Below, one piece after another: positions 15,333 through 54,144 of a stretch of DNA of 64,000 bases. Source of the DNA: Fibrobacter sp. (GTDB lineage Bacteria > Fibrobacterota > Fibrobacteria > Fibrobacterales > Fibrobacteraceae); the NCBI GenBank assembly GCA_024398835.1, contig JAKSIK010000006.1, positions 1 to 64,000 on the forward strand. The letters are read 5' to 3'. The position numbers were made by a program, and so were the translations under genes. The number at the start of each line of letters is the position of its first letter. Position 1 is the stretch's first letter. Below the pieces are notes generated by a model, which saw only the letters and a program-made list of their open reading frames with translations, searched no databases and was not told the origin of the DNA.

Positions 15333-15336
15333 TATA

Positions 15337-15693
15337 TGGAGGTGAGGGGAGTCGAACCCCTGTCCAAAATCCCGTCCATGTACATTCCTACAAGCTTTCC
15401 CTTCGTATTTGAGGTCTCGCCTCACCCACGCCCAAGAAGGTCGGCGCAGGTTTCAGCCAGCCTAGTAAATCTCGGAATCTGCACCCAGGCATTACAAATC
15501 CCTATCCCATATTGCGTCCGGACGTACTACCCAATGGGAGTGAGTCGAGGCCCGGCGTTGCCGCTAATTAGGCAGCGAGTGCGTAGTTTTCGTCAGCACT
15601 TATTTTTTTTCAGACTTTTTAACGAGTGCCCTCGTCTGAGACCTCGGCTTGCAACTAACACTTCAGCGACCCTGTCGAAACCAGATCACCCCC
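15337..15693 (-). ncRNA. ssrA: Transfer-messenger RNA (tmRNA)
   Basis: Rescues stalled ribosomes by trans-translation. The 5' end GGGGGTGATCTGGTTTCGAC and 3' end TTCGACTCCCCTCACCTCCA form the tRNA-Ala-like acceptor (GGGGGTG with CACCTCC, one G-T pair) and the T arm AGGGG/CCCCT. The discriminator A is 15337 and CCA is not encoded. The tag reading frame at 15597-15568 is GCT GAC GAA AAC TAC GCA CTC GCT GCC TAA, giving ADENYALAA, a classical degradation tag. Length about 357 nt. It is preceded by two tandem structured repeats and a good promoter, so the primary transcript likely has a leader of about 175 nt removed by RNase P. Confidence 0.96.
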
Positions 15694-15774
15694 AGGTGAG
15701 AGGCGTGCAAGAAAGTTCGCTTTCTTGCATGACCGAACCGCAGGTGCTCGGCTCTGAAAGAGCAAAGCACCCCC
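15694..15774 (-). repeat. Tandem structured repeat unit B in the ssrA leader
   Basis: 81 bases ending at the tmRNA 5' end. It starts GGGGGTGCTTT like unit A, has an imperfect hairpin GGTGCT.../...GAGCACC, the shared linker GGTTCGGTCAT, a nine-base-pair hairpin GCAAGAAAG/CTTTCTTGC (15707-15728) and ends CTCACCT. Its stems differ in sequence from unit A while staying paired. Confidence 0.8.
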
Positions 15775-15856
15775 AAGGTGAGCGTCGCGCAAGAACGCTT
15801 GCGTTCTTGTATGACCGAACCGGGGTGCTTCTGTTCGAAGAACAGAAAGCACCCCC
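15775..15856 (-). repeat. Tandem structured repeat unit A in the ssrA leader
   Basis: 82 bases, same layout as unit B: GGGGGTGCTTT, a near-perfect 15-bp hairpin (15822-15855, one bulge, three-base loop), linker GGTTCGGTCAT, and the palindrome CAAGAACGCAAGCGTTCTTG (15809-15790), then CTCACCTT. Confidence 0.8.
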
Positions 15857-15875
15857 AGTTATTAGAAGATTAGTG

Positions 15876-15906
15876 CAAATATAACAACTTCACACACTCA
15901 AGTCAA
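15876..15906 (-). promoter_or_regulatory. Predicted ssrA promoter
   Basis: TTGACT (15906-15901), 17-base spacer, TATATT (15883-15878) continuing as TATATTTG. This is the best sigma70-like promoter in the window and lies upstream of both leader repeats. Confidence 0.7.
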
Positions 15907-16007
15907 TCATACTCAATTCGTGATCTGGTTGAGACAGGTCTGTTGACAGCCCCTTCCCAACCAAAACCCTTTCACTATTATATCGCTTGAAAATTCTGTT
16001 TTGTCAA

Positions 16008-16083: not shown

Positions 16084-17457
<1,374 letters not shown>

Positions 17458-53887: not shown

Positions 53888-54144
53888 ATTAACAATTAAT
53901 AATTCACAATTCAAAATTAATAATTGAGTCTGGCGATGCATCATACCAGAGACCTAATTGTGAATTTTGTCGAGGCGAGTGCAGCGACCAAGCTTGCTCG
54001 GGCATTGTACAAGTACCAAACCTGTCGCTTGAAAATAGAAAAGCAAGCTTTTCTACTTTGCTCGCTTATGGGTTTGTGCCGAGCCGAAGTCAAAATGAGT
54101 ACGAAGTACTAATTGTGAATTTTGAATTTTAAATTTTGAATTGT
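53888..54144. repeat. AT-flanked, nested-hairpin repeat element
   Basis: AT-rich ends (53888-53930 and 54109-54144) repeat AATTCACAATT/AATTGTGAATT words, partly inverted. The direct repeat CTAATTGTGAATTTTG occurs at 53954-53969 and 54109-54124. The core has nested stems GCTCGG/CCGAGC (53996-54001 with 54079-54084), CAAACC/GGTTTG (54017-54022 with 54071-54076) and TAGAAAAGC/GCTTTTCTA (54036-54055). Confidence 0.65.

Follow-up and report, generated by a model that had tools for sequence, protein, structure and literature searches.

Two double-hairpin units upstream of the tmRNA gene

The window, by which we mean the whole 64,000-nt stretch of DNA analysed, belongs to a Fibrobacter-like metagenome bin of 2.1 Mb that is 72% complete. 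It carries a tmRNA gene (ssrA) on the minus strand, and between a promoter-like site and the mature tmRNA, which starts at 15693, the minus strand from 15856 to 15694 holds two units in head-to-tail order, one of 82 and one of 81 nt, each with two hairpins. The features of the region and one further site in the window are as follows.

15334–15693, minus strand: ssrA, tmRNA with the tag ADENYALAA (ARAGORN, 15337–15693; RF00023, 15334–15693, 171 bits)
15694–15774, minus strand: unit 2, 81 nt, with GGGGGTGCTTTG, hairpin 1 (about 15743–15772), a linker, the hairpin-2 core and a final ...CTCACCT
15775–15856, minus strand: unit 1, 82 nt, with GGGGGTGCTTT, hairpin 1 (15822–15856), the hairpin-2 core (15775–15821) and a final ...CTCACCTT
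15878–15906, minus strand: proximal promoter-like site of the sigma-70 type, TTGACT-17-TATATT(TG), found by promoter scan upstream of the units
15920–15938, minus strand: CCTGTCTCAACCAGATCAC, complement of the tmRNA 5' end, an inverted copy (89% complementary) further upstream than the units
15977–16007, minus strand: possible distal promoter, TTGACA-19-TATAAT, read from the sequence, directly after a gdhA terminator-like hairpin
16084–17436, minus strand: glutamate dehydrogenase-like gene (gdhA), upstream of ssrA on the same strand, 85% identity to Fibrobacter sp.
53972–54068, both strands: degenerate core-like sequence (30.2 bits on the plus strand at 54026–54068; 12.5 bits on the minus strand at 53972–54022)

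Each unit begins with GGGGGTGCTTT and continues with a hairpin with GGGGTGC/GCACC-type arms, GGTTCGGTCAT, a second hairpin and CTCACCT. The stems differ in sequence between the two units and pairing is kept. Tandem Repeats Finder independently reported an 82-nt period in 2.1 copies at 15687–15857, and the fold of both hairpins in both units has a minimum free energy of -80.8 kcal/mol (z = -6.8; 0 of 200 shuffles equally stable). Sequence, repeat finding and folding thus agree with the original prediction of two head-to-tail 81–82-nt double-hairpin units before the tmRNA, in coordinates and in description. Its statement that each unit starts with the GGGGGTG of the tmRNA acceptor strand is equally correct: CACCCCC, which is GGGGGTG on the minus strand, repeats at spacings of 81 and 82, the start of the tmRNA being the third copy of this flank sequence. 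Against a hairpin-2 covariance model (R1; 21 sequences, 47 positions), unit 1 scored 71.1 bits (E 3e-18 over the window) and the hairpin-2 core of unit 2 gave a match at 15693–15739 (60.7 bits, E 3.4e-15).

The units contain no gene. Rfam matches in the window were to tmRNA and tRNA only, and the units fell in no Rfam family above its gathering score. The proximal promoter-like box reads TATATTTG, and many relatives that lack the units have a similar box ~20–25 nt upstream of GGGGGTG; if this candidate promoter is used, the units would fall in a 5' leader of ~175 nt. The distal candidate has a 19-nt spacer, which exceeds the limits of the promoter scan.

Hairpin 2 is a dispersed repeat of the Fibrobacteraceae

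In a blastn search of 111 Fibrobacteraceae genomes, ssrA was matched in about a dozen, and many further matches spanned hairpin 2 only, at loci other than ssrA. The incomplete source genome holds 32 hairpin-2 copies at E ≤ 0.01, with the two ssrA units scoring highest. The model matched in 92 of the 111 genomes of the family, some of which have 55 copies or more, many of the genomes compared being metagenome bins in which palindromes can misassemble; it had no match in 57 other Fibrobacterota genomes. At dozens of unrelated sites the 47-nt core is conserved as GGYTCGGTCAT...CTCRCCTT, a sequence not drawn from the surroundings. Hairpin 2 is therefore a dispersed short palindromic repeat and is not specific to ssrA, so that the idea of an ssrA-specific leader RNA is not supported. 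In the literature on Fibrobacter with tmRNA or palindromic sequences we found nothing on such repeats, and the main text of the F. succinogenes S85 paper does not mention them.

Several loci (L132, L133, L053, L156 and G000:C34:2012-2749, the latter with L161, L166, L169, L170 and L175) consist of truncated or duplicated carB-like and thrS-like fragments full of hairpin-2 cores; an intact carB served as the element-free sequence for comparison with the filled carB-like fragments. The repeats may foster such gene-fragment duplication. We considered in-frame insertion in proteins, as in Rickettsia, and rejected it, since these carB-like and thrS-like copies disrupt the frame and the fragments that contain them are truncated or duplicated.

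One core copy interrupts an IS200-type transposase gene (L224, 1860–1902; outer stem GGAACAT/ATGTTCC). Short palindromes dispersed between genes, together with IS200-like Y1 genes in 44 of the 111 family genomes, would fit REP-type repeats moved by a Y1 (RAYT/IS200) transposase. However, there is no Y1 gene in the source genome or in the copy-rich genomes G018, G025 and G046 (all incomplete bins), the Y1 genes that we examined have other ends, and the core matches near them look like separate insertions. Y1 genes do not follow the copies across genomes. Mobilisation by Y1 is accordingly very improbable, and we rejected RAYT/IS200 as a simple answer because the genes are missing from copy-rich genomes.

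Copies tend to carry sequences of their own flanks

A typical copy is ordered as flank T, hairpin 1, an inverted T', the hairpin-2 core and flank T. In dispersed copies the hairpin before the core is often GACGCC-TNC-GGCGTC, accompanied by a short T' complementary to the T that follows the core, and T is often found again upstream of hairpin 1. Examples of T are CGCCTTTTTTGTA (L150), GCTAATA (L127) and CTATATTT (L138). Over 47 copies the inverted T'/T outer stem scored 5.38 against 4.51 ± 0.13 in flank-swapped controls, and the direct T..T repeat 6.91 against 5.43 ± 0.20, a control that leaves part of local composition uncorrected. At ssrA, GGGGGTG, the tmRNA acceptor strand, serves as T and CACCCC as T'. 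Because copies tend to carry their own flank, the likeness of the units to the acceptor strand is expected at this location.

These features also bear on the possibility that the hairpins are replication by-products rather than mobile sequences, grown or corrected in place by template switching and then locally duplicated. Quasi-palindrome correction predicts inverted copies of the local flank, arms that turn complementary to the neighbouring gene and strand-symmetric compensation. Against it stands the conserved, non-local core at dozens of unrelated sites, which must therefore have spread. We regard template switching as an unlikely source of the repeats, although it may still shape their arms.

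Turnover of hairpin elements at ssrA

Two hairpin classes occur before ssrA in the genus: type B, the element of the window, and type A, a different multi-hairpin element of ~130 nt. Among 62 readable genus loci, 31 have type A, 8 have type B, 5 have both and 18 have neither, so that type B is present at only 13 of the 62 and either class at 44. The 18 loci without a hairpin element have a leader of ~20 nt. On a tree of tmRNA nt 25–358, the distribution of the four locus classes takes 19 or more changes to explain; the tree is weakly resolved, and kinship inflates the number of independent events. The nearest relative, G045 (L067), has a tmRNA identical over 333 columns beyond nt 24 and only one unit, 100% identical to unit 2 of the window. 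The original prediction held that absence of the units in close relatives would count against it, and they are not kept: 18 of the 62 loci have neither class and G045 has a single unit. The tmRNA of G045 starts with GGGGGTGCTCTGGTAT and that of the window with GGGGGTGATCTGGTTT; the tmRNA end adjoining the repeat has therefore changed. The different 5' end in G045 looks as if it had been converted from the adjacent repeat arm. At six loci (L018, L078, L099, L102, L110 and L111), read by eye, the promoter is closer to the gene than the hairpin element or its relic, and the element would therefore be outside that transcript.

These observations can be set against a functional ssrA leader RNA, an acceptor-stem mimic that would regulate folding of the pre-tmRNA or its processing by RNase P or RNase III. 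The placement of the units between promoter-like site and tmRNA and the occurrence of hairpins at ssrA in most genus loci are in its favour, whereas the element-free loci with their short leader, the promoters between element and gene in several relatives and the differing unit number at an identical tmRNA argue against it.

In L080, L115, L118, L119 and L041, and in the bins that gave no good tmRNA match (G037, G065, G067, G069, G070, G074 and G088), contigs frequently stop within ssrA or next to it, probably because palindromes break short-read assembly.

A sister element at ssrA and tRNA-Pro

Type A elements are arranged as tmRNA nt 1–16, a core, CGACAGG and the reverse complement of the tmRNA 5' end. 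In the type A structure 27 of 41 pairs are compensatory; one member has a folding z of -8.1. The 3' arm often matches the host's own tmRNA variant. The type A model has no match at the ssrA of the window, where only the sequence at 15920–15938 is left; it is probably a 3' relic of a type A element, as its motif CCTGTCTCAACCAGATCAC also terminates intact type A elements in relatives.

All placeable type A matches of at least 98 bits lie at ssrA, and some other high-scoring ones fall at the ends of contigs, in bins that gave no good tmRNA match. All 18 weaker matches examined beyond ssrA are next to tRNA-Pro and share one orientation, the core being followed immediately by CGAAC. In most of these cases the tRNA end up to ...AGATT precedes the core, so that the site is split at TT^CGA, in parallel with GGTTT^CGACAGG in tmRNA. 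At L258–L272, L274 and L275, type A cousins beside tRNA-Pro (CGG or TGG) are found past the tRNA terminator. The T-loop motif is split there at TT^CGA, and the site also occurs as an inverted copy; the case in the source genome is L272 (G000:C23:128300-129900).

Three further loci have unusual arrangements. In G028 (L076, 1058–2481) there are three tandem tmRNA genes, and copies 2 and 3 have a type A core of ~120 nt inside the gene, between GGTTT and CGACAGG; apart from this inserted core they are complete to the 3' end. Candidate explanations for the extra copies are a tmRNA with an intervening sequence, paralogs born of recombination and an assembly artefact. G046 (L078) has a second tmRNA copy similar to those of G028. 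In the last 40 nt before the tmRNA of L016 (G026), the leader reads GGGGGTGCTCTCAACCAGATCACCCCC...GGGGGTG and looks like a type A element without its core, possibly an excision footprint.

Stem compensation and predicted folding

The original prediction also stated that the stems differ between units yet remain paired. This is right: in 21 related copies of hairpin 2, both sides have changed in 12 of 16 pairs and 96.3% of cells are paired, with compensation well above shuffled and slid controls (0 of 500 shuffles equal). The step from this covariation to selection of an RNA type is not sustained. DNA palindromes also compensate, and selection on an RNA permits G-U but not A-C. Departures from pairing in hairpin 2 comprised 11 G-T and 15 A-C cases (82 distinct cores, one near-invariant U-G pair excluded), against 237 G-T and 33 A-C in the tmRNA of the same genomes as control and 51 G-T and 35 A-C in type A, a ratio that is indicative, as the structures are of unequal quality and the copies related. 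The type B stems thus look strand-symmetric in sequence, and their lack of an excess of G-U over A-C is the main argument against taking covariation as the mark of a functional leader RNA.

Folding, which ignores pseudoknots, proteins and modification, gave the acceptor stem a predicted pairing of about 0.99 without the leader and about 0.49 with it, and in nascent chains the acceptor strand was predicted to pair into the leader with a probability of up to 0.86. An effect of the leader on tmRNA maturation is thus possible by these models. To this extent the suggestion that the leader could compete with the acceptor strand stands; the match to that strand, which had prompted it, reflects the general habit of these repeats of copying their flanks. 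The predicted pairings and the frequent fit of the type A 3' arm to the host's tmRNA variant speak for a leader RNA with a function, but the core also occurs at dispersed sites, the sister element is found beyond the tRNA-Pro terminator and a G-U excess is absent, and together with the turnover at ssrA these points make such a function quite unlikely.

A repeat family with probable hot spots at RNA genes

We consider it probable that the units belong to a non-autonomous family of two-hairpin palindromic repeats that has hot spots at ssrA and tRNA-Pro and is passively transcribed. Dispersal, flank copies, turnover and the missing G-U excess suggest that the family spread and is maintained as DNA palindromes. 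One unit could readily have become two through the direct GGGGGTG repeats, by recombination or slippage. As a promoter lies upstream, they are probably transcribed as a leader of ~175 nt that would be cut away in 5' maturation, and they would have no conserved role of their own. ssrA would be a recurrent hot spot for the repeats, and tRNA-Pro one for type A, split at TT^CGA; mobility and the mode of insertion are inferred here from the arrangement of copies. Several points weigh against this reading: no mobilising enzyme was identified, Y1 transposases being absent from the source genome and several copy-rich genomes, the recurrence of the two classes at 44 of 62 ssrA loci could mean selection for a local effect, and folding suggests that pairing of the acceptor stem can be upset by the leader.

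REP/BIME and other short interspersed bacterial palindromes are short and dispersed, have compensated stems, form tandem clusters and are mostly non-coding. The Fibrobacteraceae repeats are palindromic and share all of these traits, but we found no Y1/RAYT link for them, and their flanks tend to recur within the copies, in direct and inverted form. Rickettsia palindromic elements lie inside as well as between genes and keep reading frames. The Fibrobacteraceae repeats likewise occur within and between genes, whereas the copies in coding sequence that we checked are in truncated or duplicated gene fragments. In Rfam, a weak antisense match to Clostridiales-1 RNA (RF01699) at L097 (1037–1170, minus strand) covers a palindrome of a type A arm and the tmRNA start; at 41.6 bits, below the gathering score of 48 bits, and in antisense, we read it as a palindrome coincidence and rejected membership. 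Genomic islands at ssrA in Dehalococcoides carry integrase genes and use the ssrA 3' end (PMC3146451). Common to both systems are the ssrA hot spot, direct repeats of the gene end, tandem accumulation and a T-loop-type insertion motif; in contrast to the islands, the Fibrobacter inserts are ~80–200 nt long, contain no gene and lie at the tmRNA 5' end.

The conclusion of a leader that controls tmRNA is tempting and probably wrong, and a family-wide repeat system takes its place. This system, apparently undescribed, sits beside ssrA and tRNA-Pro genes and carries copies of their ends. Where covariation alone convinces, comparing G-U with A-C departures in stems offers a cheap test of DNA palindromes against selected RNAs. 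As a tentative and rather doubtful proposal, gene-less mobile palindromes may recognise TT^CGA in tmRNA and tRNA-Pro, or other short sites, and on insertion leave the site split and the target present in one inverted and one intact copy; the layout would then be half site, core, half site, inverted site and gene. We know of no described site-specific insertion process of this kind. If it is real, the process would act on essential RNA genes without destroying them, and a target-copying pattern that reflects a true insertion mechanism would be new to mobile DNA biology.
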